A DNA stretch of 64,000 bases, taken from Opitutaceae bacterium EW11. GTDB lineage: Bacteria > Verrucomicrobiota > Verrucomicrobiia > Opitutales > Opitutaceae. The DNA is taken from positions 36,654 to 100,653 of the forward strand of contig QAYY01000011.1 of NCBI GenBank assembly GCA_003054665.1. The letters run 5' to 3'. The notes under the pieces were generated by a model. The model was not told where the DNA came from and did not search any database. It saw only the letters and a program-made list of their open reading frames with translations. Positions 43,095 to 57,632 of the stretch are shown piece after piece; position 1 is the stretch's first letter, and each line of letters opens with the position of its first letter. A program made the translations under genes and the position numbers.

Positions 43095-43521
43095 CCGAGA
43101 GAGGGCGTGCGTAGCTTCAAAGGCCCGCTTTGTTCCCAGCGGTCACGGGACGGACCGAGCGACGACGATCGATTGGGACCAATGCTGCATCGGGAGTCGG
43201 CGCTGGAGCGTGGGGCATGGTCAGAAGGCCTTTGGTTGAAATCGCTGCCGCAGCTGTATTTCAACAACAAACCCCATAGGGGGAACCCTGGTGTGAAGAT
43301 ACGGAATACAGCTGCGCGTTCAGATTCGTCTTCCACCTGAACCCCGCAGGCGGACGGCTGCTGAGGCCCAACACGTTCCTGCTCCACGGGGTGCACGCTC
43401 AAGAATCAGACTCTGCGAACGCTGGGGCGTTTTGCGAACGGAGCCCTCGCGCGGCCGCCGTGGTGAGCACGAGCGTTTTCACTCTGGCAATATCCAAGAA
43501 CGGCTTTACGAAGGCGACCGA
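43095..43521. other. Divergent intergenic region between exosortase and WcaI-like gene
   Basis: This 427-bp stretch must hold promoters for the long minus-strand locus and for the plus-strand glycosyltransferase. It contains the GC-rich motif copy C at 43272-43291. The glycosyltransferase start is preceded by GAAGGCGA as ribosome-binding site. No clear -35/-10 pair or sigma-54 site was recognised. Confidence 0.55.
43272..43291 (-). promoter_or_regulatory. GC-rich motif, copy C, upstream of the exosortase gene
   Basis: On the minus strand the site reads CCAGGG-TT-CCCCC-TAT-GGGG, with a 4+4 inverted repeat CCCC-TAT-GGGG at the right. It lies about 178 bp before the exosortase start codon. Copy A (2744-2765) has the same order of blocks. 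A role as an operator or activator site is inferred. Confidence 0.4.
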
Positions 43522-44793
43522 GTGAAAATCACCGTCTGGGGCATCAATTACGATCCGGAGCCGACTGGAATCGGGCCATTCAACACGGACCTTTGTGCCT
43601 ACTTCGCCGAACGTGGTCACGACGTCAGAATGATCACGACCTTTCCCTACTATCCCTGGTGGAAGAAGCCGCCGGAAGCTCGAGGGAAACTATACAAGAC
43701 GGTGGCGATGAAAGGCGTCACGGTGCTTCGTTGCTGGCACTACGTACCGGCCAAGCCGTCCACGCTAAAGCGTCTGCTCCATGAGATGAGCTTTGTCGTG
43801 ACGTCAGCGCTCAAAGCGCTGTTTCTGCCGCGGCCCGACGTTTTTATTGTCGTCAGTCCGCCACTTTTCCTCGGACCGGCGGCTTTCGCCGTGAGCCGGA
43901 TTCTGCGACGACCGTTTGTGGTCCACGTCCAAGATCTCCAGCCAGATGCCGCACTGGGTTTGGGCATGATCAAACCGGGCCCGGCGGTGCGGGCGCTCTA
44001 TCTGCTGGAGAAGTGGAATTACCGGTGGGCTGCACTCGTCTCGGGCATCTCCCAGGGAATGCTGGACGCGTTCGCACGAAAGGATGTCGCGGCGGAAAAG
44101 ATCTGCATGTTCCCCAACTGGGTCCCAGACGCCAAAACGACCGGCGGGCCCGTGCAGCCGGCCGTTTCTGCCGCTTCCTTCCGAGCAGCGAACCAGCTCT
44201 CTCTCCAGACGCCTTTGATCGCCTATTCTGGAAACGTGGGAATGAAGCAGGGACTTGAGGTGGTGGTGGAAGCAGCGGCAAAGGCGAAGTTGGAGACGAC
44301 GGTCCGCGGCGGATCCGATCTTCGAGCCATTCATTGGGCGATCTGCGGCGAGGGCGCCGCAAAACCTGCGCTGCAGGAAGCGATTCTGCGCACCGGAGCG
44401 GAGTCGGTCCGTCTGTATCCGCTACAACCGGACGATCTCTATCAGGCCCTCTTGCGCGAAGCGGACATTTCGTTGATCACCCAGCAACGGGGCACGGGGC
44501 AGTTCTTTTTTCCGAGCAAGCTCCTGTCGATCCTGCAATACGGCCGTCCTGTGCTCGCGGTGGCGGACGAAAGCAGCGAACTCGCGCGCGCCGTTCACCA
44601 GGGCGACTTCGGCTTGGTGGTGGAGCCAGGAGACGCCTCGGCGCTGCTCGCGGCGGCGGAAAAGATGCTCGCGGCAGACGATCTCCAGCGTGCCGCCTGG
44701 GCTCGGAACGGCCGGGCCTGGGTTGACCAGTTTCGTCGAACTCCCGTCCTATCGGCGTTCGAAGCCCGGCTCGAGACGCTGCGGAAAAGGTAA
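43522..44793 (+). CDS. WcaI-like GT4 glycosyltransferase
   Basis: A 423-residue GT4 enzyme of the WcaI/WbuB group (colanic-acid-type fucosyl/sugar transferases). The family start is ITVWGINYDPEPTGIGPFN, followed by MITTFPYYPWWKKP and, in the donor half, YSGNVGMKQGLE and RGTGQFFFPSKLLSILQYGRPV. The GTG at 43522 has GAAGG seven to eleven bases before it and gives the correct family start, so the upstream ATG at 43432 is rejected. It is transcribed away from the main locus but belongs to it by function. Confidence 0.92.
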   Translation: MKITVWGINYDPEPTGIGPFNTDLCAYFAERGHDVRMITTFPYYPWWKKPPEARGKLYKTVAMKGVTVLRCWHYVPAKPSTLKRLLHEMSFVVTSALKALFLPRPDVFIVVSPPLFLGPAAFAVSRILRRPFVVHVQDLQPDAALGLGMIKPGPAVRALYLLEKWNYRWAALVSGISQGMLDAFARKDVAAEKICMFPNWVPDAKTTGGPVQPAVSAASFRAANQLSLQTPLIAYSGNVGMKQGLEVVVEAAAKAKLETTVRGGSDLRAIHWAICGEGAAKPALQEAILRTGAESVRLYPLQPDDLYQALLREADISLITQQRGTGQFFFPSKLLSILQYGRPVLAVADESSELARAVHQGDFGLVVEPGDASALLAAAEKMLAADDLQRAAWARNGRAWVDQFRRTPVLSAFEARLETLRKR

Positions 44794-44808
44794 ACGTCTC
44801 CTGGCTCG

Positions 44809-44845
44809 AAAAACAGCTGGCCCGCGGACTTTCGTCGCGCGGGCC
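44809..44845 (-). terminator. Hairpin and T-run between convergent genes
   Basis: An 8-bp stem GGCCCGCG/CGCGGGCC (44819-44826 with 44838-44845) is followed on the minus strand by AGCTG and five T. It lies just after the stop of the minus-strand subtilase gene and also just after the plus-strand glycosyltransferase gene. It probably ends transcription of the subtilase gene. Confidence 0.6.
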
Positions 44846-44890
44846 AACCGGTCTATACAGAGCCGCGCCTGGGGGCGCCCTCTGGATTCG

Positions 44891-47800
44891 TCACTCGACC
44901 AGATACACCTCCGCAAGGGCGACACCGGTGGTGTTTCCAACACCGGATACTTGAGCCGTGTAGCTGCCGGGCTGAAGCGTCGCGATAATGACTGCATCCT
45001 TTGAATTGGAGGCGAGTGCGAAGGCATTGACCTTGTTCATCGTCGACAGAATTTCGCCGGCGTTGGGCGCGGAACCCCAATTGTCGTTGCTTTGGATGAC
45101 GGTTTGCCCGCTGAAGAGCTCGAGCTTGGGGTCGGCGAGAACGCCAGAGACATTGTAAGGCGCGTTCCCCAGCGTCGGGCCGATGCCGCGGATGAGGACC
45201 GTCCTCGGTGTCTGGCCACCAATGACGAAGCCGACGATGAGGATGTTCGCTCCTGTGCCTACGTCCGCACGGGCGGAAAGATTTGTCAGACGCGGACTGT
45301 CGGTCGTGTAGACTTCCGTCGCGTCGTAGAACTCCGCGAGAGCGACGCCGGACCCGGAACTGGTGTTGACGTGCGCCGTGTAGGCACCGGGGGCAAGGGA
45401 CGTGCTGATTGCGGCGTCTTTGCTCGTCGGGCTGACGAAGTCGAACGCCCCAGCTCGAGCCATCGCCGGACCAACCAATGGATCGGAACCCCAGTTGTCG
45501 TTCGAGCCAATGACGACTCCGCCGCCATTAAACAACGTGAGGGCGGGATCGGACAATGCGCCGGGAACGTTGTAGGGGGTCGCTGAGAGAGTCGGACCGA
45601 CGCCTCGGATTATGATCGGCTTCTGGTCGCTGCTGCCGCTGATTATCAGACCAACGATCAGCGTCTTGCTGTCGGACCCCGCCACCGCGCGGGCTGACAG
45701 ATTCACGAGCCGACCGATATCGCTTGCCGTGGCGACACTCACCGTGGCCACAGAACTGGTGACGGAGCCCAGCGCGTTGGTCACCACGACGGTGTAGTTG
45801 CCCGCGCTGGCGTTCGTAGCGTTCGTGATCGTGTAGGTCGGCTGCGTAGCGCCGGCAATCGCGACGCCGTTGAGATACCATTGGAAGGCGAGTGGACTCT
45901 GGCCGTTGGTGTTGACGGTCAACGTCACGCTTCCTCCGATCGCGACGGAGCGCGATACGGGTTGCGTGACGATCGTGGGCGCGGTCTTGACCGCAACCCG
46001 GCCGGTGCGCGAGGCGTTCTGCCTGAACTGCGGCCAAGGCGAATTGGCCAGCGCACTTGCCGGCACTGCGTAGAGGAAGCGATCACCGCTGCCGAACAGG
46101 GCGGCGTCCCCACCGAGAAGTACCGACGAGCGGATCTGGCCGCCGGTGAGCCGATTCGAAACCTTCAGCCCGGCGCTGCTGATCGTGTACAGCCGGCCGT
46201 CGGAAGAGCCGATATAGACCAAACCCCCGACGTCCACCGCCGGGGAAGAGGCGCGAATCTCATTCTCGGTGGCGAAGGTCCATTTCTGGATCCCGGCCGA
46301 CGTCAGCGCGTACATCTTTTTGTCGTAGCAGCCAAAGTAGACGGTCCCGTCTGTTGCCAAAGCTGCCGAAGAACTGATCGATCCTCCAGCGGTGAAGGCC
46401 CAACGCTGACCGCCCGTCGGCTCAACGCAGAAGAATTTGCCGCCGAGGGAGCCGATATACACCGCGCCGTCGCTGCCGATCGCGGGTGACGCGTACACCT
46501 GGCCGCCGGTGTTGAACCTCCAGCGGATCGATCCGTCAGTCGGCGAGATCGCGTACAGGTAGTTGTCGTCGGATCCAATGTAGATCGTGCCGTCGGCCGC
46601 GATGGACGGCGAAGAATAGCTCACGCCGGGCACGGAGGCCTGCCAGCGTTCGGTGCCGTCGGCCAGGTAGGCGTGGAGTTTCCCGTCGCCGGAGTGCTGA
46701 TACACGGTTCCGTCCGCAGCAATCGCGGGCGAGGATCCGTCATCGCCGGTCAGTGACTTTTCCCACTTCAGCGTGCCGGTCTTGCTGAACGCAAAGAGAC
46801 CTGCGCTCGTGGAAGCGTACGTCGTTCCGTCGCTTCCCACCGCGGGCGTGTTGACGTCGGCGTTGCCCTTCACCGGCAGCTGCCAGCTCTCAGCGGTCGT
46901 GTTGCTCAGGTGGATCAGGTAGCCGCTGTTGTCCATGGCGATGATCGCATTGTCCGGCGGAAACAGAGGGGAGGAGTTCACCGCGTCGGGCATCCGCCAG
47001 GCGAAGATCGCGTCCATCAACTGAAGGGAAAACTGCCCGGCGCTTCCGTCGAAGCTGTCGATGGCGATGCTGTAGGTGCTGCCTTCGACGGCATCGAACG
47101 ACACAGAGTAGAGGTACGTATCTAGCACCTTGAGCGTGTCGACGGTGCTGCCCGTGTAGACGGCGATAATCGGCGAAAAACTGTCCGTCTGCACGGTGAC
47201 GCTGAACGAGCCGGTCTTCGTGGCAGTCCAGCGGTACCAAACCGTCTGTCCGCTGCCCGTGTAGGTGCTGTATTTCAGCGTCGGCTCCCCGTTCTCCTTG
47301 CTGGCCTGAACGATGGATCCGGTCGCAGTCGCGTTCATGCCCACGAGCGACGTCGCTTGCGCGAAGTCGTCGTTTCCGGGAACGATGCCGAGGCTGAGAA
47401 CGATGGCTCCGGTGGCGCCGCTCTTTCCGTCGACGCAGAAATGATAGGTCGATCCGGCGCGCGCGGCGAACGATACGTGGCTGGTCGTGCGGTTGACGGC
47501 ATCGTCGTTCGAAGCAACCGCGGTCAGGGCGCCGGCCGAACCGGTGTAGACGCCGAGCACGGTGTCGAAGCTGCTTCCGGCCGTATCCAGAATGACGACA
47601 CCTCCCGTCGGAGCCGTCCAGCTCCACCAAACCGTGGCACTTGCCGGCTGCGATCCGACGGCCGGTTCTCCAGCTTCAGCGGTGGCGCCCACGTTGCTGG
47701 AGCGGAGGGTCAGGCCCGAACCGCTAAGCACGGCTCGCTTGGCGAAGTCGTCGTTGAACGGGCGGTTTGTGGTCGATGTGAGGGCCTTCGCCAGATTGAG

Positions 47801-49111
47801 GCGCCCGCCGGTTTGAACCAGGCCGGACAGATTGGACAGAGAGTCGACCGAGCCGAGCAGGCGATTGATCGACTGCCGATAGGTGTCCTGCGGAAACTGA
47901 GCCCTCAACAGCGCCACCGAGCCGGCGACGATCGGGGAGGAGAAGGAGGTCCCGGATACTGTGCGGTATTCCGTGTCGCTGTGATTGCTGGCGGTGAGGA
48001 TGTCGGTTCCAGGCGCCGCCAGTTCGACGATGTTTCCGTAGCTGCTCGAGACGGACAACTGGTCGTTGCGGTCGGTGTTGGCCACGGCGACGAGGTTGTC
48101 GAGGAGGTAGTCGGCGGGATACTCCTTCACGAGTTCCGCGCTGACGCCGTCGTTTCCGGCGGAGGCGACAACCACCACGCCGGCATCTCGGGCGCGTTTG
48201 AGGGCGTCGTACTCTGCGGTCGAATTGCTGGAGCTGCCGTAGCTGATGTTGATCACCTTGGCACCCTTGCTCACGGCATAGTCGATGCACTCGACGACCT
48301 TGGCCGTATCCGCTCCGCCCGTGGCTGCGTCGTCGACCTTGAGCGCCATGACCTTGGCCTGCCACGCCACGCCTGCGATGCCTTTGCCGTTGTTGCCAGC
48401 GGCGGCGACGAGACTCGCGACCGAGGTGCCGTGGCCCTGGTCGTCGTCGGGATTCCCGCCCTGAGAGGAGCTCTTCCCGGCTACGGCATTGATGCCGTGA
48501 ACGTCGTCGATGTAGCCGTCGCCGTCGTCGTCGATCCCGTTCCCCGGGATTTCGCCCGCGTTGGTCCACAGGTTGGCGGCGAGATCCTCATGGGTCAGGC
48601 GAACTCCCGTGTCGATCACCGCAATGATCACGTCTCCTGCGGCCGTGCGGGTGTCCCACCCTGCGACGGCGCCGATGTCGGCGCCCGATTTGCCGCTGTC
48701 CTGCCCCGTGTTCCGCATATACCACTGCTCCGCAAAGCGAGGGTCGTTCGGGGCGGCATGGCGATGGAGCACGTAGTTGGGCTCAACGTATTCGTACAGC
48801 CCCGACGCCTTGAGCTTCTCCATCTCCCGCATCGCGTCGGAACCCGAGGGAAGATCGAGAACGCGGAGATTTCCCAGACGCGGGAAATCCCTCCGGAGTT
48901 GAACGCCTTCCACGCTCTCGCGCGCGGCGATCTGGGACGCCGTCACTCCGGCGCGGGGCTTTGCGATCAGCGTCTGGTCGCGGAAGCCCTGAGTCATCTC
49001 ATGGGCGGTGATGGGGGTGTCGCGTCTTTCGCTGGCTGGACGCGCGTCGGCGAAGAGGCTGCCGACGGCGAGAGTTGTGAACGCGAGAATAGCAGGAACT
49101 CGAGAGATCAC
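44891..49111 (-). CDS. Large secreted subtilisin-type (S8) protease with propeller, Ig domain and two C-terminal modules
   Basis: A ~1,406-residue secreted protein. After a signal peptide (ends near residue 21, GSLFA) and a propeptide, the subtilase domain has Asp167 (AVIDTG), His227 (GHGTSVA) and Ser389 (SGTSFSSP). Two repeated beta-rich domains follow (each with NDDFA...WWSWTAP or WYRWTAT). Then comes a PQQ/WD-type propeller with repeated blades (SSPAIAADGTVY, SSPSIAADGTIYIGS, ASPAIGSDGAVYIGS), an Ig-like domain (PTIVTQPVSRSVAIGG), and two copies of a ~130-residue C-terminal module (VNLSARAVAG... and TNLSARADVG...), ending in ALAEVYLVE. The GTG at 49111 gives a standard signal peptide; the open frame upstream is not convincing. 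It probably digests proteins outside the cell or on the surface. Confidence 0.9.
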   Translation of the reverse strand: MISRVPAILAFTTLAVGSLFADARPASERRDTPITAHEMTQGFRDQTLIAKPRAGVTASQIAARESVEGVQLRRDFPRLGNLRVLDLPSGSDAMREMEKLKASGLYEYVEPNYVLHRHAAPNDPRFAEQWYMRNTGQDSGKSGADIGAVAGWDTRTAAGDVIIAVIDTGVRLTHEDLAANLWTNAGEIPGNGIDDDGDGYIDDVHGINAVAGKSSSQGGNPDDDQGHGTSVASLVAAAGNNGKGIAGVAWQAKVMALKVDDAATGGADTAKVVECIDYAVSKGAKVINISYGSSSNSTAEYDALKRARDAGVVVVASAGNDGVSAELVKEYPADYLLDNLVAVANTDRNDQLSVSSSYGNIVELAAPGTDILTASNHSDTEYRTVSGTSFSSPIVAGSVALLRAQFPQDTYRQSINRLLGSVDSLSNLSGLVQTGGRLNLAKALTSTTNRPFNDDFAKRAVLSGSGLTLRSSNVGATAEAGEPAVGSQPASATVWWSWTAPTGGVVILDTAGSSFDTVLGVYTGSAGALTAVASNDDAVNRTTSHVSFAARAGSTYHFCVDGKSGATGAIVLSLGIVPGNDDFAQATSLVGMNATATGSIVQASKENGEPTLKYSTYTGSGQTVWYRWTATKTGSFSVTVQTDSFSPIIAVYTGSTVDTLKVLDTYLYSVSFDAVEGSTYSIAIDSFDGSAGQFSLQLMDAIFAWRMPDAVNSSPLFPPDNAIIAMDNSGYLIHLSNTTAESWQLPVKGNADVNTPAVGSDGTTYASTSAGLFAFSKTGTLKWEKSLTGDDGSSPAIAADGTVYQHSGDGKLHAYLADGTERWQASVPGVSYSSPSIAADGTIYIGSDDNYLYAISPTDGSIRWRFNTGGQVYASPAIGSDGAVYIGSLGGKFFCVEPTGGQRWAFTAGGSISSSAALATDGTVYFGCYDKKMYALTSAGIQKWTFATENEIRASSPAVDVGGLVYIGSSDGRLYTISSAGLKVSNRLTGGQIRSSVLLGGDAALFGSGDRFLYAVPASALANSPWPQFRQNASRTGRVAVKTAPTIVTQPVSRSVAIGGSVTLTVNTNGQSPLAFQWYLNGVAIAGATQPTYTITNATNASAGNYTVVVTNALGSVTSSVATVSVATASDIGRLVNLSARAVAGSDSKTLIVGLIISGSSDQKPIIIRGVGPTLSATPYNVPGALSDPALTLFNGGGVVIGSNDNWGSDPLVGPAMARAGAFDFVSPTSKDAAISTSLAPGAYTAHVNTSSGSGVALAEFYDATEVYTTDSPRLTNLSARADVGTGANILIVGFVIGGQTPRTVLIRGIGPTLGNAPYNVSGVLADPKLELFSGQTVIQSNDNWGSAPNAGEILSTMNKVNAFALASNSKDAVIIATLQPGSYTAQVSGVGNTTGVALAEVYLVE

Positions 49112-49332
49112 GTTGGGAATGGGATTGAAGCTGTGCCTGGGTTCCCTCCGCGGAAAGCAGGGGCGCGGCTCAGACCGCGTTCCCGCTATCAAACGTTTCT
49201 CAACGCGAACGGCGCAGGGGAACTGCGCCTCCCGTGAAGTTGCCCACACATTTGCGCCAACGCTCGCAAAACGGCCGGTTCACGCAAGTGGGAAATAGTA
49301 TCCACTCGCCACCGGACCGGCACCGTTGGCCC

Positions 49333-51885
49333 TCATTGAGAGGAGGCAAGCCAGGCTGCCAGCTCAGTCTCGTTTTCCACGTGCTGCCCAAGTTGATACT
49401 CTTTTGACAGAAGGCCGGCATAGGCCGGGTCAGCGAAACGGCGGCAGTGGAGGAGGACCCGGGCATGTTGACCGGGAGCGCGCACGAGCCGTCCGAGAGC
49501 TTGATTCACCTTCTGAATACCTGGAACTTGGTACACTCTTCGGAAAGCCACCTCGCGGCCGAGATCGGATAGCGCCGCGAGTCGGGCGCGCTGCACCGCA
49601 TTCACTTCGGGTAAGGCCGGACCGACAATCATCGCGGAACTCACGCGACCGCCGAGGACATCGATGCCTTCGGCGAAGCTGCTTCCCAGCACCAGAAAGA
49701 GCGCATCGGACAGAACCAGAGATTCCTCGACCCAGGCATGCTGGGCGGCCAGATCGGGCAGACGCGGTTGGAGCGAGACGCGGAGCACGGATCCGGAGTC
49801 CGAAAGCGTGCGCTGGATCGCTTCCGCGTAGGAATAGCTCGGGAAGAAAACCGCCACGGCGCGTGTCGTACCTGACGCGGGAGCAGCTGCGCACAGGGTT
49901 TCGATGGTGGATGCGGTGAGTCCGTAAAACCGGCTTCGTTGCTGGTAAGTCGTGTCGACGCGGAGATCCACCGCTACATCGTACGCGCCGTCGCGCCACG
50001 GAGTCTCGGCGCGGATGATCGTCGGCCTGTCGATCTCACGCGCCTCCTCGACCTGCAGCAAGTCCGCGCCGGTTGACAGATGGCGGAAGAGCTTTCGGGA
50101 GTCGCGTTTGGTGAGCGCGCCGAGCCTTTCGTTTCTTTCCATCGCCGCCGGGCGTCGCTCCGGAGGCTCCAGGCCGCAGGAGGCGGCGAATACGTCGGTG
50201 GGCCCGAATGTGGCGCTGGTGAGGAGCGCTGCGCCGAAACTGCGAAGTGCCGGCCCGATCACGGCTCCGGCATCGAGGCACGTCACGGACAGTTCGGCGG
50301 CGCGCGGCACCCACCACAACCTCGGCAGATCCGTTTCCAACTCGGTCAGAAACGCCGGAATCTGCCAGAGCATTTCCGAGATCCGCGAGCCGAGCTCAGC
50401 ATGATCCAGGGGGACCGCGGCGCTGTGCTTGGCGATTGTTTCGAGCAGATGACGGGCGTCATCTTCGTCGTCAGGGGAGAGAGAGTCGGCCGGACGCAGG
50501 TGATGGAGAAAGTGCGTCCAGTGGTCCCACGCGGTGAGAAGCGGGGCGTAGGCGCGCGCTCGATACAGATCCTCGGCTGCCGCAGCCGCGTCGGCCGCGG
50601 AAAACAGGTGCGAGTAGGCGTCGGCGACGCGCGCGGGCAGGTTGTGGGCTTCGTCGACGACGAGCAGCGTGCGCTTCGGATCAAAACCAGGTTGGTCGTA
50701 GAAGAGTCCGCGGTTTCCGGGGGCAAACACGTAATTGTAGTCGCCGATCCACACATCATTGAAGGCGAGTGCGACCCGCGTGATCTCGTACGGACAGATG
50801 CCCGCGGCCTGGCCCGCCTCGCGCAACGCGTCGAGGGATCGATTCGTGTTTTCGAAAAGATAGAATCGGGCGAGATCGCTACGCGCCCAGCGTGCCTCCA
50901 GATCGTGAAGGTAGCGGCAGGCATCATGCACGCAGTGAAACTCGGAGTTTACGCAATGCTCGCGCTTGTTGCGCACGTGCCAGATGGCCACTGACGTGCT
51001 GTTCGCGGATTCGGCGCCCGGGTCGATCGCGGTCATCGCCGTCAGCTGGCGTACGACCTGAAGCTGGCCTGTGGATTTGCTGGTAAGATAGAGCAGCCGC
51101 TCAAACCGGCCGCGTTTCAGCTCGGACAGCGCGGCCTGGAGGATGGCTCCGGTTTTGCCGAAGCCCGTCGGAGCTTCAAAAAACACCAATGGCCGGTTTT
51201 CGAGCGCCTTTTCCAGATCCGCGTGAATGGATTCTTGGCCCGGCCGAAGTGTGGCGAAGGCGGGACGGAAGCTGAGGGATCTTAGCCGTTCGCGGGCGCG
51301 AAGGCGGAGGTTGAGGAACTCCGTGAGCCGCTCCAGCTGGACATGAAACGTCGCTTCGTCGGCGGCGGTAACCGGGATACCCTGGCTCAGACCGCTTCCG
51401 GCCTCGATGAAGACGAGTTCACCGTGCACCGGAGTGCTCGCCTCGAGAGCGGGGTGGATCGGCGCGTGCAGCCTGGCCAGCGCGAGGTACGTCGAGAGTT
51501 GGGCGAAATACGCGGGATACTCGGAGCGAAGCTCTTCTTCGGCCGCGGGCAGCGGACGGAGCACGGTCTTCAACTCCCGCAGTTTTGCGGCCGGTCGGAT
51601 CCGCTGCTCGTTCTCTGCCTGCGCCGGCGGGATCAGCTGATCGATGCGCCCGGTCAGCTTGATCCTCCAACCGCGATGCGCGATCTCACCGGCGATGGGG
51701 ACTTCGAAAAGTGCGGCGGTGTTCTCGCCGCCTACCCGGTCGCGGAACTCCTGGTGCCAGTGAGTCCCGAGCTGGGCGCGCCAGATTCCCTGAGGACCGT
51801 CCCCGCTTTCCCTCGGACCGATCTCGAAATCGGACAACTCGCCCACGCTCAACTGAGCGGTGCGGTCATCGAGGGAGAATTCCAT
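49333..51885 (-). CDS. Rad3/DinG-type DNA helicase with N-terminal PD-(D/E)XK nuclease domain
   Basis: An 850-residue protein. Residues ~40-135 form a Cas4/RecB-like nuclease with GRID (Asp82), RELKT (Glu104, Lys106) and QLSTY (Gln129, Tyr133). The superfamily 2 helicase has Walker A APTGFGKT (238-245) and DEAH (411-414). Cys311, Cys318, Cys323 and Cys364 stand where XPD/DinG proteins hold a 4Fe-4S cluster. The last motif, QVPGIQKVNQALGRLVR, matches motif VI. It should unwind and cut DNA in repair or replication restart. It lies 131 bp after the RecO-like gene; a repair context is plausible. Confidence 0.9.
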   Translation of the reverse strand: MEFSLDDRTAQLSVGELSDFEIGPRESGDGPQGIWRAQLGTHWHQEFRDRVGGENTAALFEVPIAGEIAHRGWRIKLTGRIDQLIPPAQAENEQRIRPAAKLRELKTVLRPLPAAEEELRSEYPAYFAQLSTYLALARLHAPIHPALEASTPVHGELVFIEAGSGLSQGIPVTAADEATFHVQLERLTEFLNLRLRARERLRSLSFRPAFATLRPGQESIHADLEKALENRPLVFFEAPTGFGKTGAILQAALSELKRGRFERLLYLTSKSTGQLQVVRQLTAMTAIDPGAESANSTSVAIWHVRNKREHCVNSEFHCVHDACRYLHDLEARWARSDLARFYLFENTNRSLDALREAGQAAGICPYEITRVALAFNDVWIGDYNYVFAPGNRGLFYDQPGFDPKRTLLVVDEAHNLPARVADAYSHLFSAADAAAAAEDLYRARAYAPLLTAWDHWTHFLHHLRPADSLSPDDEDDARHLLETIAKHSAAVPLDHAELGSRISEMLWQIPAFLTELETDLPRLWWVPRAAELSVTCLDAGAVIGPALRSFGAALLTSATFGPTDVFAASCGLEPPERRPAAMERNERLGALTKRDSRKLFRHLSTGADLLQVEEAREIDRPTIIRAETPWRDGAYDVAVDLRVDTTYQQRSRFYGLTASTIETLCAAAPASGTTRAVAVFFPSYSYAEAIQRTLSDSGSVLRVSLQPRLPDLAAQHAWVEESLVLSDALFLVLGSSFAEGIDVLGGRVSSAMIVGPALPEVNAVQRARLAALSDLGREVAFRRVYQVPGIQKVNQALGRLVRAPGQHARVLLHCRRFADPAYAGLLSKEYQLGQHVENETELAAWLASSQ

Positions 51886-52016
51886 AGCGGTTAGTGGCGG
51901 AAAACGAAAAGACGAGGCTGGACGAACGAGGCTTCAACTCGGGTGCAGCGGTTGGAACGCAGGCGGTTCCGTCCGCGCGGTTTTCCCGAGGCAATGAGCT
52001 TCAATTCGGAGCTGGC

Positions 52017-52631
52017 TCAATCAAGCAGGATCTCGGTCTCGCCTCGCAAATAGTCGTCGAGCTTTCTCTGGAGGCGCGCCACGATTCTGGCATCCGCCGA
52101 TTGCTTCTCGAGCGGCTGGTTCAGCACCTCGGCGAGCGTTTCACGGTCGGCCGGAGGCAGGGTGGGAGCCCAGGCCTGCTTCAAGGGATAGCCTTCGTCG
52201 CGGCAGAAACGGTAGACGCTTTTCAAATACACGATATCCGGCCTCTCGGAGTTGGCGAACGCATCGAACGAGAGCCGCAGGAGGGCGTAGACATCGCCAC
52301 GGCTGTCTTCCGCCACGGGGTTTCGCGCCACCAGGCTGGCGAACGCCGAAGCGAGTCGCAGGCTGTCGTAGCTGCGCCCAATGCCCGACCGGCGCTGAAG
52401 AATGCGGGCTTCCTTGACGAAGAACGCCTGCCCTTGGGTGGGTGCCTCCAGAACGAGCGACGCCTCGTCGAACAGGTCGAGCGCCGATACCGGCGTCGCC
52501 TTTTTCGACAGCCGCTGGAGGGCGAGGACCGCGCCGTCGACCACCGAAAACAGCGTCAGGGTTTGGAACACGTCCGATGGAGGCCGTTTGGCCAACACCC
52601 AGGCATCGGTGGTGTGCGTCGGACCTGCCAC
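52017..52631 (-). CDS. RecO-like DNA repair protein
   Basis: A 204-residue protein. The opening TDAWVLAKRPPSDVFQTLTLF, followed by AVLALQRLSKK, follows the OB-fold pattern of RecO (usually TxAxVLxxRxxGExDxxLTLxT). The next part, LFDEASLVLEA...FFVKEARILQRRSGIGRSYDSLRLASAFASLV, matches the RecO helical domain. The C-terminal ~60 residues lack the usual zinc-binding Cys set. RecO loads RecA with RecR and anneals DNA. The start is GTG at 52631, 16 bp after the DUF502 gene. Identity is by pattern only. Confidence 0.55.
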   Translation of the reverse strand: MAGPTHTTDAWVLAKRPPSDVFQTLTLFSVVDGAVLALQRLSKKATPVSALDLFDEASLVLEAPTQGQAFFVKEARILQRRSGIGRSYDSLRLASAFASLVARNPVAEDSRGDVYALLRLSFDAFANSERPDIVYLKSVYRFCRDEGYPLKQAWAPTLPPADRETLAEVLNQPLEKQSADARIVARLQRKLDDYLRGETEILLD

Positions 52632-52647
52632 AAATCGCGGATGGAGA

Positions 52648-53322
52648 TTACGCCGGCGGGGTGGGAGAGCGCGACCCGTTGGGCCAGCTCGGCAACACTG
52701 CGCCGCCGGAAATGATCATCTTCATGCCGTCGCCGACGGACATGTCCAATTCTCGGATCTCTTCCTTGGGCAGCAGGAGGAGAAAACCGCTGGTGGGGTT
52801 TGGCGTCGTCGGGACAAAAACCGTCCAGAGCTCCGTCTTGGCCTTCGCCTGCGGTTCCCCCTGCGCTTTGTTCGTGAGAAAGCCGATGGAGTAGATGCCG
52901 GCGCGCGGGAACTCGATCAGGACAACTTTGCTGAAGAGCTGCCGGTGCTGGGAACCAAACGTAGCGACGATCTGCTTGACCGTGTTGTAGACGTTTCCGA
53001 CTCCGGGAATGCTCTGGATGAAACGCTCGGCCAGGCCGCCGAAATATTTCCCCAAAACGTATCGCGAGATGTAGCCGAGCACCGTGATCAGCACGATGAC
53101 GACGAACGTCGCGAGGATATTCCAGACCAGGTGCCAATCGCGAATCGACTCCGGGAGATACGGAAAAAAGAGCGGACGGAAACTTCCGCCCACCCATTCG
53201 AACAACCAGGCGAACACGCCCCACGTAACCGCGAGCGGCGCGAGCATGAGCAGTCCGGACAAAAACGTGTTCCGGAGAGAAACCAGGAAAGAAGGGCGCG
53301 GATCGTTGACAGGCTCGGCCAT
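52648..53322 (-). CDS. DUF502 family inner-membrane protein
   Basis: A 224-residue protein with two clear membrane helices (LSGLLMLAPLAVTWGVFAWLF near 20-40 and ILATFVVIVLITVLGYISRYVLG near 70-93). The rest is the soluble DUF502 region with SIPGVGNVYNTVKQIVATF, RAGIYSIGFLT, VFVPTTPNPTSGFLLLLP and the late VGDGMKMIISGG. The family is widespread in bacteria and its function is unknown. The ATG at 53322 is chosen because the frame upstream of it overlaps nothing recognisable and the normal family start has a short polar leader. Confidence 0.93.
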   Translation of the reverse strand: MAEPVNDPRPSFLVSLRNTFLSGLLMLAPLAVTWGVFAWLFEWVGGSFRPLFFPYLPESIRDWHLVWNILATFVVIVLITVLGYISRYVLGKYFGGLAERFIQSIPGVGNVYNTVKQIVATFGSQHRQLFSKVVLIEFPRAGIYSIGFLTNKAQGEPQAKAKTELWTVFVPTTPNPTSGFLLLLPKEEIRELDMSVGDGMKMIISGGAVLPSWPNGSRSPTPPA

Positions 53323-53365
53323 GGCGGGAACGGCGATTAGGTCACATCCCAAGCTTCAGAAACAC

Positions 53366-53393
53366 AAAAAAAACGCGGGCGCCGGGCCAGCGT
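53366..53393 (-). terminator. Terminator after the truncated module gene
   Basis: On the minus strand ACGC-T-GGC-CCGGC-GCC-C-GCGT forms a seven-pair stem with one mismatch, followed by a run of seven T. It lies 24 bp after the stop at 53417 and closes the transcript that comes from 54470. Confidence 0.8.
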
Positions 53394-53416
53394 CGGGAGC
53401 TCAAATTCCAGGCGAT

Positions 53417-53686
53417 TCAAGGCCCTTCGTAGATCTCCAACAGGACCACGCCTTCGCTGTCGTTTTTTCCTGTCACATGCACGGTGTACGTCCCGGGTGC
53501 GAGCGGCCTCTGGTTTTCGTAACGCTTGCCACCGCCGTCATAGATCGTGACCTGCGGCTCCGCGAGGGCTCCCGCGACTCCGTATTGCTCCAAGTGCGGG
53601 CCGAGAGCGCGCAGGTCAGCCCCCATCTTGCGAAGTTCATGGCGGACGCACCCTACGGACGGGCTCCGAAAACTCCCTCCGCGCAC
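53417..53686 (-). pseudogene. Truncated copy of the secreted C-terminal module
   Basis: The 89-residue frame has, from about residue 22, LRALGPHLEQYGVAGALAEP and ends in GVVLLEIYEGP. This aligns with the second half of the module encoded at 53721-54470 (VRAVGPTLEDFGVTGFLRAP ... GLVHLEVYDLP). The first half of the module and any signal peptide are missing; the 20 residues before it are unrelated. It is probably a remnant of a tandem duplication, although expression as a small protein cannot be excluded, as a terminator follows directly. Confidence 0.55.
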
Positions 53687-53720
53687 GTATCCGCCAACCC
53701 AGACTCTTCCGCTGCGGAGG

Positions 53721-54470
53721 CTACGGAAGGTCGTAGACTTCGAGATGCACGAGACCCGCTGCGTCGCCGTTGCTCGAAACCTGCGCAGTGTAGGAGCCCG
53801 GGGAGAGACGCAGAATGGCCCACCCGTCGGCGGCGCCCGGCTTCAAAGGATATGCCCCTGCCGAGAGTTGAGCTTTGGTCAGCTCGATCGGATCCGTCGT
53901 GGTGCTCGTGCAAATCTCGCCTTTGGCGTTGTAGATGGAGAGCGCAGGGGCGCGAAGGAAACCTGTCACGCCGAAGTCCTCCAGGGTCGGCCCGACGGCG
54001 CGGACCAGGATGCGCTTGGTCGCGGATGCATCCGCAGCGTCTTCGCCAACCACAAAACCTGCGGTCAAAGCCTGATCGCCGCTTCCGGCGATTCCGCGGG
54101 TGCTGAACGTCAGCAGGCGGCTGCCCACACCGGCGGCGGTCGCGGAGGGCGTGACCGTGAGCGCGAGTTCCTGCGAGGCGTTCGCCTCTTCACCCATGTA
54201 ACCGACCCGATAGCGGCCGTTGTCTTCCGGAGTGGCCGACTCGATCACCAGCACCCGTGAGTTTGCTCCAGGGATGGGATTGCCGTTCTTGAACCAGACG
54301 TTGCCAGACAGGACGGGAATCGAAAGCACGACCCGTTCGCCGGCAGGGACGGTGATCTGCACGAGGTCCAGCGAAGGAGCGACGCTTGCCTTGTTCAGAA
54401 CGAACTTCGTCTCCGCGCGAACCAGACCGGCGAGAAAGGGGAGAAGGAGGGCGGCGTGATGAAGCCTCAT
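53721..54470 (-). CDS. Secreted protein with Ig-like domain and C-terminal module
   Basis: A 249-residue exported protein. Residues 1-19 form a signal peptide (MRLHHAALLLPFLAGLVRA). An Ig-like domain follows, with the phrase SATPEDNGRYRVGYMG near 77-92. The last ~130 residues form the module seen twice in the subtilase encoded at 44891-49111: STRGIAGSGDQALTAGFVVG, RILVRAVGPTLEDFGV, and the end SPGSYTAQVSS...GLVHLEVYDLP. The subtilase module has NDNWG in the middle; here that part has diverged. The gene is set 33 bp after ybeY. The function is unknown; the module may serve secretion or surface attachment. Confidence 0.75.
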   Translation of the reverse strand: MRLHHAALLLPFLAGLVRAETKFVLNKASVAPSLDLVQITVPAGERVVLSIPVLSGNVWFKNGNPIPGANSRVLVIESATPEDNGRYRVGYMGEEANASQELALTVTPSATAAGVGSRLLTFSTRGIAGSGDQALTAGFVVGEDAADASATKRILVRAVGPTLEDFGVTGFLRAPALSIYNAKGEICTSTTTDPIELTKAQLSAGAYPLKPGAADGWAILRLSPGSYTAQVSSNGDAAGLVHLEVYDLP

Positions 54471-54502
54471 ACGGCGTGGCGGTCGGACCGGAATCCAGTG
54501 TG

Positions 54503-54979
54503 TCAGTGTCGGACTTGCAGCAAAAATCGCGGCAAGGCGTTTGCGGCGCGGAGCACGGTCATCGCCCGTTTCTCGGCGGCCCGCATCTGACGTTTTTTCG
54601 CGGGCTGCAGGTCGTCGTAGCCCGAGAGATGCAGCCAGCCGTGTACGACGTACAGCGTGAGTTCCTCCGAAAAGTCGCGATCGTGCATCCGGGAGTAGTT
54701 CGATGCGGTATCGACCGACACGCAGATTTCGCCAGCGCTCGCGAGCGCGGCATTTCCCTCGAACGTGATCACGTCGGTGATGGTTGGGTCAGAAAGAAAG
54801 TCGGCGTGAATCCTCGCCAGTGCCGGATCGGTCAGGAATGCCAGGGACAGTTCCCCGCCGGGGCATCCTCCGAGGAAGTCTCCGCCGTGTTCGTCCAGGG
54901 TATGCACCACGCGAGAAACCGCCCTGCGGTCGAGCTTGAGTCGCGGATGAGCGTTGTGGACGTGGACGACGCGGGGCAT
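54503..54979 (-). CDS. ybeY: Endoribonuclease YbeY (rRNA maturation)
   Basis: A 158-residue protein. The family motif is present as HGWLHLSGYDD: His113 and His117 are in place, but the third metal ligand, normally His, is Asp123. TDVITF (68-73) and GEICVSVD (83-90) are the other conserved segments. YbeY trims the 3' end of 16S rRNA and takes part in ribosome quality control. The ATG at 54979 is chosen because MPRVVHVHN is a normal family start and the upstream extension is Arg/Pro-rich. It stands after PhoH and PgpH, as in many bacteria. Confidence 0.92.
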   Translation of the reverse strand: MPRVVHVHNAHPRLKLDRRAVSRVVHTLDEHGGDFLGGCPGGELSLAFLTDPALARIHADFLSDPTITDVITFEGNAALASAGEICVSVDTASNYSRMHDRDFSEELTLYVVHGWLHLSGYDDLQPAKKRQMRAAEKRAMTVLRAANALPRFLLQVRH

Positions 54980-55163
54980 TCGCGAGGATTGAGCCAAGCG
55001 CCGTTTCGGGGGCAATGGGAATCTGGGCCGGACTCTGCCCGAGTTTGGAGTCGGACGAAATCGCAAGGCCGCGAGGGTAATCGATCCAAGGTCGCCGAGT
55101 TGCCTCAGCCTCTGCGGCGACGGCGGATTGTCCGTCCGCCGGTGCACGCCAACCGGAGCCCGC

Positions 55164-57560
55164 TCAGGCTTGAGCTTTGGTCGGCGCAGGGGTGCCGGAG
55201 CCCTCTTCGGCCGGGGCGTATCCGACGCGTGAATGCAGCATGTTGAGCAGCGTGAAGGTGAAGCTGCTCTTGATCTTGCTCAGTTCCTCGAAGGTGATCG
55301 GAGCCTCGTCGAGCTGGCCGTCTTCAATGCGATCGCGGAAGATCTGATCGATCAGTTCGCCCAGGTGCTGGGGGGTGACCTTCTTCATCGAACGTGACGC
55401 GGCCTCGACGCCGTCGGCGAGGTGGATGATCGCGCTCTCCTTGAATTGAGGCTTCGGTCCGTCGTACCGGTAGGTGCTCTCGCAGACTTTCGGAGCCTCC
55501 ACCGGCTTCACCAAGCCGGGCGCGACCATGGGAGCGGTGCTTCCTGTGGGGTTGGTGCCATGGCGCGAATCGTTCAGCGCTCGTTGGAAAAAGAAGCGGA
55601 TGAGCGTCGTGCCGTGGTGCTGCTGGATTACGTCGATCACGGCGCGAGGCAGCCGGTGCTTGAGCGCAAGATCGATGCCGTCCTTCACGTGGGCCTTGAT
55701 GATGAGAGCCGAAAGCGAGGGGTTGTTCTCGTCGTGCGGATTGGCGCGATCCCGCTGGTTTTCGGTGAAGTACTCCGGCTTCTTCGTCTTGCCGATGTCG
55801 TGGAAGAGGGCGCAGGCGCGGGCCACGAGCGGATTGGCCCCGATGGCGTTGGCGGCGTTCTCGGAAAGTTGGGCGACGACGAGCGAATGGTGATACGTGC
55901 CCGGCGCCTCCATCTGCATCAGGCGAAGCAGCGGGTGATTGAAATCCGTGAGCTCGAGCAGGGTGATGTCCGTGGTGCGTTTGAAGAGGCCTTCGAGCAC
56001 CGGCAGGACGCCGACAACGATGATGCCGGTCACAAATCCCGTCCCGAGTCCGGCGGCCATCTGCTTGAGGACCGTAATTGCGGGCAGCTGATCGACGATG
56101 CCCATCAGAAGGGCGAACGCGGCGACCGTCACTCCGCCAAGCCCTGCCGCGCGGACGACCCGACCGCGCTTGCGGGCCGAACGGCTGCAGAAGATGGCGA
56201 TCATCGAGGCGACAAAGGTCATCACCAGAATGTCGAGACGGTTGCCGTAGATGACGCTGGCGAAAATCGAGATGAGCAGCGCCATGAACATCGCCGAGCC
56301 GTAGTCGAGCAGGATGGCGACGATCAGGGGCGCCAGAGCGGTCGGCGCGATGTACGGCAGAATCGAAGCCGCCGTGGTGTTGTTGACGAAGAAGGGCAGC
56401 TCACCGAGCCAGAAGCTCAGCCGCACGAGCGCCAGGTTCACGATCACGACCAGGGCGAGCAGCGCCAGTCGGCCGTTGCTTTGGAGCGTCTCCTGATCTT
56501 CGAGGCGGATGTAGAAGACGCTCGCCATCACCATGCCCAGCACGAGGAGCATGCGGCCGAAGAGCTGCAGACCTTGGTCGACGCGGGCGTCGCCGTGTTC
56601 GAGCACGTATTTCCGGTGCGCTTCCAGCATTTCGTACTGGGCGGGAGTAACCCGGGTGCCGGGCTCGATGATCGTTTGTCCGCGATCGACGTGCTCGGTC
56701 ACCGGCTTGATGTCCTGCACCGCTTCGGTGCGAAGCCGGGCGGTGGCCTCGGCGTCGAACATGACGTTCGGCACCAGTCCGTTTCGGAAGATGCGGAAAA
56801 GGGCGTTGGAAACGTCGCGTCCCGACCCTTCCGCCATCAGATTGATGCGGAGGAAGGTCAACGCATCCTCCATGGTCTGGACGGGACGCTGTGTGACTTC
56901 TCCGTTCGGCTTGGTGATTTGGAAGACCGTCACGCCGTCGGGCTTCGTCGAAAGTCCGAGCGTGCGGCCATCCTGCACGCCTTCGTTGTAGATTTCGCGC
57001 AGCGAGAGGAGGCCGTTCTCGATCAGGCTGAAGCGGGTCTTGGCGTCGCCGACCGACATCACCGTGGCCACGTCCTCGGAACTGACGCGATACGGGCCTT
57101 TGGCGTTGAAGGCGTCCACTGCCTCGTTGATCGCGCTGCGGCGTTCCGGCGAGTCTTTGGAGTGTTCGCGATCGATCTTATCGAGCTGTGTGATGAGTTC
57201 GTGGATGTGCGCTTCGAAGAGGCGCAACGGCTCCATTTCGAGCCGGTAAACGGGAGGCAGGCGATTGACGCGCTGCTCTTTGGTCAGGCGGGTTTTTTCC
57301 GCGCTGACGTAGCTGAAGGGGACGCTCGCCACGATCCGCACCGACGCCAGCTGGTTGGGCAGTACCGGCAGATTCAGCGTGTTTACTCCGACGAAACTGA
57401 TCAGGACGATCGCTCCGACGGTCGCGCAGAAGACCAGAATCGCCACCAGACGGCTCGTTTCGAGGAACTCGACCGTGCCTGAAACTTCAGCGGTCTTGCG
57501 CTTGCGCGGCGGGGGTGGTGTCGCACCCGGGAGCAGCCGGAGTTTGGTGAGGATCGACAT
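55164..57560 (-). CDS. PgpH-type 7TM-HD membrane phosphohydrolase
   Basis: A 798-residue membrane protein. One N-terminal helix (about 36-60) is followed by a large extracellular 7TMR-HDED domain (about 70-340), seven hydrophobic segments (about 345-540), and an HD domain with APGTYHHSLVV, ALFHDIGKTKKPEYF and QQHHGT motifs. PgpH of Listeria and relatives degrade cyclic di-AMP in the cytoplasm. An insertion of about 45 residues (NDSRHGTNPTGST onward) lies in the HD domain after QQHHGT. The ATG at 57560 is chosen over 57629 by the family start. The gene lies between phoH and ybeY. Confidence 0.92.
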   Translation of the reverse strand: MSILTKLRLLPGATPPPPRKRKTAEVSGTVEFLETSRLVAILVFCATVGAIVLISFVGVNTLNLPVLPNQLASVRIVASVPFSYVSAEKTRLTKEQRVNRLPPVYRLEMEPLRLFEAHIHELITQLDKIDREHSKDSPERRSAINEAVDAFNAKGPYRVSSEDVATVMSVGDAKTRFSLIENGLLSLREIYNEGVQDGRTLGLSTKPDGVTVFQITKPNGEVTQRPVQTMEDALTFLRINLMAEGSGRDVSNALFRIFRNGLVPNVMFDAEATARLRTEAVQDIKPVTEHVDRGQTIIEPGTRVTPAQYEMLEAHRKYVLEHGDARVDQGLQLFGRMLLVLGMVMASVFYIRLEDQETLQSNGRLALLALVVIVNLALVRLSFWLGELPFFVNNTTAASILPYIAPTALAPLIVAILLDYGSAMFMALLISIFASVIYGNRLDILVMTFVASMIAIFCSRSARKRGRVVRAAGLGGVTVAAFALLMGIVDQLPAITVLKQMAAGLGTGFVTGIIVVGVLPVLEGLFKRTTDITLLELTDFNHPLLRLMQMEAPGTYHHSLVVAQLSENAANAIGANPLVARACALFHDIGKTKKPEYFTENQRDRANPHDENNPSLSALIIKAHVKDGIDLALKHRLPRAVIDVIQQHHGTTLIRFFFQRALNDSRHGTNPTGSTAPMVAPGLVKPVEAPKVCESTYRYDGPKPQFKESAIIHLADGVEAASRSMKKVTPQHLGELIDQIFRDRIEDGQLDEAPITFEELSKIKSSFTFTLLNMLHSRVGYAPAEEGSGTPAPTKAQA

Positions 57561-57632
57561 GGCGGTCTTGGAACGCAGAAGGCGCGACGGAAGGGTTATT
57601 GTAGCATACCGGACGAACGCCGAGCCCAAACC

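Follow-up and report, generated by a model that had tools for sequence, protein, structure and literature searches.

A predicted EndoDinG-type nuclease-helicase in a recO-linked setting in Opitutaceae, with Opitutales relatives that lack the FeS cysteines

Within a 64,000-nucleotide stretch of the genome of Opitutaceae bacterium EW11 (contig QAYY01000011.1; hereafter the window), we identified a gene whose product joins an N-terminal PD-(D/E)XK nuclease domain to a Rad3/XPD-type SF2 helicase and, judging from its sequence, we consider this protein highly likely to be an active EndoDinG. The initial annotation had taken such a combination to be unusual, on the premise that DinG-family proteins normally lack a nuclease of this kind. 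Neither point held: a 2025 review (Cheng, PMC11981726, section 3.7) names a subgroup, EndoDinG, for DinG proteins whose N-terminal domain is a PD-(D/E)XK nuclease, a relative with the same architecture has a solved structure (PDB 9KQH), and 66 of the best 80 of our 175 confirmed loci carry the nuclease. The fusion is thus a widespread, strictly conserved and already described bacterial protein type, and the window gene is an ordinary example of it that adds a recO-linked genomic setting. With the fusion itself known, the fresh detail, of modest interest, is the apparent loss of the FeS cysteines alongside an intact nuclease in relatives from Opitutales.

A whole-ORF check found the gene to be an intact reading frame with an ATG start, and its parts and neighbors are collected in Table 1. 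The helicase half is recognized directly by the Pfam models DEAD_2 (E 5.4e-12) and Helicase_C_2 (E 7.4e-20), and XPD and DinG structures are among the best fold matches of the 850-residue protein, as recovered by a fold search and structure alignment. The AlphaFold2 model of the full protein, built from a 45-row alignment, reached a pLDDT of 87.5 and a pTM of 0.87, with one poorly predicted stretch at about residues 579-616 that is missing from 14 of the 16 other rows of alignment A1. As a single sequence the nuclease half gave no Pfam match, a phmmer search of the PDB with this domain alone returned 0 matches, and an AlphaFold2 run on the isolated domain, given no alignment, reached a pLDDT of 36.9 and supports no claim. 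A profile of 31 nuclease domains from the family recovered 9KQH with an E-value of 1.8e-54 and 4IC1 with one of 5.7e-9; the latter is listed as 'Uncharacterized protein', and we take it to be the Sulfolobus Cas4 protein SSO0001. Fifteen of the same 31 domains match PDDEXK_1 in Pfam (best E 1.7e-9) and two match Cas_Cas4. The genome's own two PDDEXK_1 proteins match the nuclease-domain profile weakly (E 0.0095 and 0.035, values that come from a tiny sequence set). In the full-length model the N-terminal part is predicted to form a helix (32-54), three strands (59-70, 73-85 and 100-108), a second helix (124-139) and a further strand (153-161). This is the element order expected for a PD-(D/E)XK core, and the model places His44, Glu61, Asp82, Glu104/Lys106 and Gln129/Tyr133 on the matching elements. 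Profiles, Pfam and model therefore agree in upholding the earlier description of a Cas4/RecB-like PD-(D/E)XK domain joined, nuclease first, to a Rad3-type FeS helicase, with the former occupying the N-terminal 205 residues or so and the latter starting at about residue 206.

Table 1. Features of the EndoDinG gene and its upstream neighbors (positions in the window)
Feature	Coordinates	Strand	Evidence
EndoDinG-type nuclease-helicase, 850 aa	49333..51885	-	Intact ORF; full-length family-profile match to 9KQH, E 2e-162; AlphaFold2 pLDDT 87.5
PD-(D/E)XK nuclease domain, residues 1 to about 205	51271..51885	-	Profile matches to 9KQH 1-195 and to 4IC1; PDDEXK_1 in 15/31 members; core element order in model
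Nuclease active-site stretch, His44, Glu61, Asp82, Glu104, Lys106, Gln129, Tyr133	51487..51756	-	All identical in 66/66 relatives
Rad3/XPD-type SF2 helicase part, residues about 206-850	49336..51270	-	DEAD_2 and Helicase_C_2; XPD structures align from residue ~205
Walker A, residues 238-245 (APTGFGKT)	51151..51174	-	Lys244 in 66/66, Thr245 in 65/66
FeS region, Cys311, Cys318, Cys323, Cys364	50794..50955	-	Four Cys in 65/66 relatives; reduced or absent in part of Opitutales
DEAH box, residues 411-414	50644..50655	-	Asp411, Glu412 and His414 in 66/66
Arch region, residues about 430-535 (approximate limits, set on alignment)	50281..50598	-	Mostly helical in model
Helicase motif VI, residues 798-802 (GRLVR)	49480..49494	-	Arg799 and Arg802 in 65/66; remaining row gapped
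RecO-like gene just upstream, 204 aa	52017..52631	-	TIGR00613 in 8/13 family members, best E 4.1e-7; RecO_N in 7/13; window copy E 0.14
DUF502 protein of same cluster	52648..53352	-	PF04367, E 2.1e-32; homologue in 12/21 loci, window included
YbeY rRNA-maturation RNase of same cluster	54503..55147	-	TIGR00043, PF02130; homologue in 11/21 loci, window included
PgpH/YqfF-type 7TM-HD hydrolase of same cluster	55164..57629	-	7TMR-HDED, 7TM-7TMR_HD and HD; homologue in 7/21 loci, window included

The catalytic residues bear this out. Asp82, Glu104 and Lys106, which the initial annotation had named as the nuclease site, are where it placed them, and His44, Glu61, Gln129 and Tyr133 complete the site. 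The four FeS cysteines and the DEAH motif that it noted are also present. A missing metal ligand, for which it had suggested looking by alignment, was not encountered: all seven nuclease residues are identical in each of the 66 nuclease-bearing relatives among the best 80 of the 175 loci, which were confirmed after a genome scan with a helicase-motif pattern (the 14 loci left out of the 80, 13 archaeal and one from Acholeplasmataceae, have no nuclease-domain match). In light of this identity we reject a chance motif as the source of the site. The same seven residues recur in 157 of the 159 rows of a wider set, made up of the window protein and 158 of 181 loci; the 23 loci left out are the window's own (L004) and others that lack a nuclease match or are identical to, or contained in, another. 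Of the two exceptions, L022 begins at a contig edge and L048 has Ser for Glu61 in this set but Glu in alignment A1.

Based on these features we compared the window protein with the known types. EndoDinG is described as having conserved H, E, D, E and K nuclease residues and a CCCC motif (PMC11981726, section 3.7), and endonuclease activity of a Bdellovibrio member is stated in the same review as unpublished data. The window protein has the N-terminal PD-(D/E)XK domain with its H, E, D, E and K residues, a predicted CCCC site in the helicase part, an SF2 DinG/XPD motor with the helicase motifs, and full-length homology to a protein of the same architecture whose structure is solved, and it is alike in nuclease residues, CCCC site, motor and domain order to EndoDinG proteins such as Bdellovibrio bacteriovorus DinG. 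Its identity to EndoDinG members outside Opitutales is 21-25% (alignment A2), and the window branch is divergent. The solved protein is full-length Finegoldia magna DinG (crystal structure 9KQH, released 2025-12-03), whose sequence reads as that of an EndoDinG; it aligns to residues 7-831 of the model (Z 26.9, rmsd 5.3, 715 residues aligned) at about 20% identity and, of the 50 rows in the VIA-align listing, which covers mainly residues 200-850, it alone reaches well into the nuclease domain. Chain A of 9KQH has Ala at the metal-ligand position equivalent to Asp82, where 66 of 66 relatives have Asp, and for this reason we read it as probably an engineered mutant, that is, a nuclease-dead construct. 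Our literature searches found no paper on 9KQH or Finegoldia magna DinG and no activity data for an Opitutales EndoDinG.

Other nuclease and DinG types are set apart by their organization or by score. The Cas4-like protein 4IC1 is a stand-alone chain of 206 residues, in contrast to the fused domain of the window protein, and carries its FeS cysteines within the nuclease. ExoDinG proteins, represented by Staphylococcus aureus DinG (8ZEF, 9II8), share the arrangement of an N-terminal nuclease on a DinG helicase; however, theirs is a 3'-5' exonuclease of another kind, and they align to the window model from about residue 200 only. We likewise rejected canonical DinG of the E. coli type (36.8 bits against a cut-off of 598, PRK11747.1) and YoaA (39.1 bits against a cut-off of 680).

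We then considered the gene neighborhood. Upstream of the EndoDinG gene and on the same strand are genes for a PgpH/YqfF-type protein, YbeY, another protein, a DUF502 protein and a RecO-like protein; in all, the proteins scanned within 43432-57629 were a glycosyltransferase, an S8 peptidase, the RecO-like and DUF502 proteins, a 249-aa protein, YbeY and the PgpH-like protein. Comparison of stretches of about 14 kb showed a recO-like gene near the EndoDinG gene in 13 of 21 loci, the window included, and in 11 of the 21 it lies directly upstream on the same strand, at most 300 bases away or overlapping. It was not found in the stretches of the other 8 loci, although absences of neighbors are soft at this length. 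The RecO-like neighbor, which the initial annotation had already pointed out, is recognized as such at the level of its family (Table 1); this family is divergent, and the window copy alone matches TIGR00613 weakly. Since RecO_C has no match anywhere in the genome, this protein may be the genome's only RecO. On the downstream side, 44891-49249 codes for a 1452-aa S8 peptidase with a PQQ-like propeller and Ig domains, and in 4 of 20 other loci the EndoDinG gene also has a homologue of this peptidase downstream.

The recO-like neighbor leads us to favor a role in repair over one in defence. We posit that EndoDinG would be a chromosomal DNA-repair enzyme, in which an XPD/DinG-type 5'-3' single-stranded DNA translocase or helicase is combined with an N-terminal metal-dependent PD-(D/E)XK nuclease. 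By analogy with related proteins, from which helicase activity, 5'-3' polarity and FeS assembly are all taken, the motor would load onto single-stranded DNA beside a duplex and travel in the 5' to 3' direction, and the strands would be parted by the FeS/arch region. The nuclease would cut one exposed strand, perhaps a flap, an overhang or a displaced strand, and this cleavage might leave a substrate for the RecO/RecA route of recombination repair. To this mechanism in its entirety we would give roughly even chances; a search of the literature found no paper that gives a cellular substrate for a nuclease-helicase fusion of this kind. The role of EndoDinG could also be redundant, because the same genome encodes a separate DinG-like protein and two PDDEXK_1 proteins about 3 kb apart, which look like AddAB (a name that we infer).

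A narrower form of the repair reading, and one that does not exclude it, would make the protein a bacterial counterpart of Dna2 that cuts 5' flaps in lagging-strand maturation or end resection. The initial annotation had seen in the fusion a Dna2-like logic built from different parts, and to the extent that eukaryotic Dna2 is also a nuclease-first nuclease-helicase, and that the window motor belongs to a 5'-3' family, the likeness stands. The DALI matches listed for the EndoDinG nuclease domain also include mouse Dna2 (Cheng, PMC11981726). Beyond this the resemblance is only loose: the window protein has a motor of the SF2 Rad3 type with the cysteines in the insertion of that helicase, and the neighbors identified around the gene include no replication gene. 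Dna2 has an SF1 helicase and carries its FeS cysteines inside the nuclease. Based on the Rad3-type SF2 families found and the position of the window cysteines we reject membership in Dna2, and a Dna2-like role, which we regard as a tentative and rather unlikely proposal, would amount to similar work done by other parts.

The distribution of the gene bears on the further possibility that it encodes a nuclease-helicase for defence against phages, along the lines of Hna or of CasDinG of CRISPR type IV. The gene is present in 36 of the 37 searched Opitutaceae genomes, its own included, but is patchy outside the family, with 11 of 20 other genomes of Opitutales and 32 of 144 genomes of a phylum-wide draw carrying it (two of the 32 being matches near the limit). 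Such patchiness would suit a defence system, and the helicase half does match the PADLOC typeIV_DinG model PDLC01439 (E 1.6e-64); this match, however, spans residues 206-831 only, which is the helicase, and with 33.7 bits from the Csf4 equivalog TIGR03117, against a cut-off of 400, we reject CasDinG membership. Hna (9YHN), which also came up in the fold search, resembles the window protein in combining a DinG-like SF2 helicase with PD-(D/E)XK in one chain, of 845 aa, but it is described as lacking an FeS cluster and carrying its nuclease C-terminally (PMC13381803), and the reversed domain order and the four cysteines of the window protein rule out membership. Given the frequent position of the gene after recO, a housekeeping setting, and its presence across the family, we hold defence to be very unlikely in spite of the patchiness outside it. 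Among the best 80 of the 175 loci, fused members are found as far afield as Bacillales, Clostridia, Erysipelotrichaceae, Pseudomonas, Burkholderia, Bdellovibrionota, Acidobacteria, Myxococcota and one Lokiarchaeia MAG. Distant relatives also occur in 16 phage and 15 plasmid records, all at less than 60% identity and with at least 80% query cover in 2 and 3 of them, respectively. Matches to PHROGs are confined to the helicase part. We found no support for the window gene having come from a phage or a plasmid.

Within the conserved frame of the family, the FeS region varies. Counting only the stretch aligned to residues 308-330 and position 364, we observed four cysteines in 114 of the 159 rows, five in 13, three in 20 and none in 12, and never one or two. 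The rows with none or three all belong to Opitutales, where they make up 32 of 90 rows (12 and 20, respectively) against 0 of 69 outside, with the order membership of L055-L058 assigned from titles and identity; outside the order at least four cysteines are found in 69 of 69. The window protein retains all four. In all 12 Cys-less members the nuclease set and the residues checked in the helicase motifs are intact, and the FeS region is slightly shorter, with a median of 62 against 68 residues. These members are L045, L046, L058, L044, L183, L176, L192, L195, L196, L198, L200 and L205.

This retention also weighs against the notion that the nuclease domain serves as a platform for binding DNA, with no catalysis of its own, on a helicase that works alone. 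The predicted precedent of pExoDinG, with a dead nuclease domain on DinG (PMC11981726, section 3.6), leaves some room for it, as does a window nuclease read from sequence, but we find it scarcely credible because even very distant relatives are identical in their metal ligands, catalytic Lys and Q-x3-Y motif.

We lean, by a little, towards the proposal that EndoDinG is losing its FeS cluster in Opitutales, such that the four cysteines would have disappeared as a set from several lineages in which the nuclease and helicase sites are still fully conserved, giving rise to an FeS-independent nuclease-helicase. State changes numbered six on a FastTree tree of 97 rows and four when 50 of those rows were used for a quick IQ-TREE tree. 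We are unsure of both the number and the direction of the losses, and regain is possible, because the trees have long branches and weak forks and the Cys-less L205 lies at the base. The Cys-less relatives offer a natural test of the role of the FeS cluster in Rad3-type enzymes and, if the proposal is true, members with four, three and no cysteines would form a natural series that separates cluster-dependent from cluster-independent functions, with the window protein as the four-cysteine reference. Our literature search found no report of a Cys-less EndoDinG, and the strings 'Opitut' and 'Verrucomicrob' do not occur in the main text of PMC11981726, as distinct from its supplementary tables; section 3.7 there treats the CCCC motif as conserved. 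The 20 three-cysteine members (L032, L039-L043, L160-L162, L165-L170, L172, L173, L175, L177 and L180) have another residue in place of the first cysteine and carry a His two positions ahead of the next one, and a cluster held by three Cys and one His is possible in these proteins.
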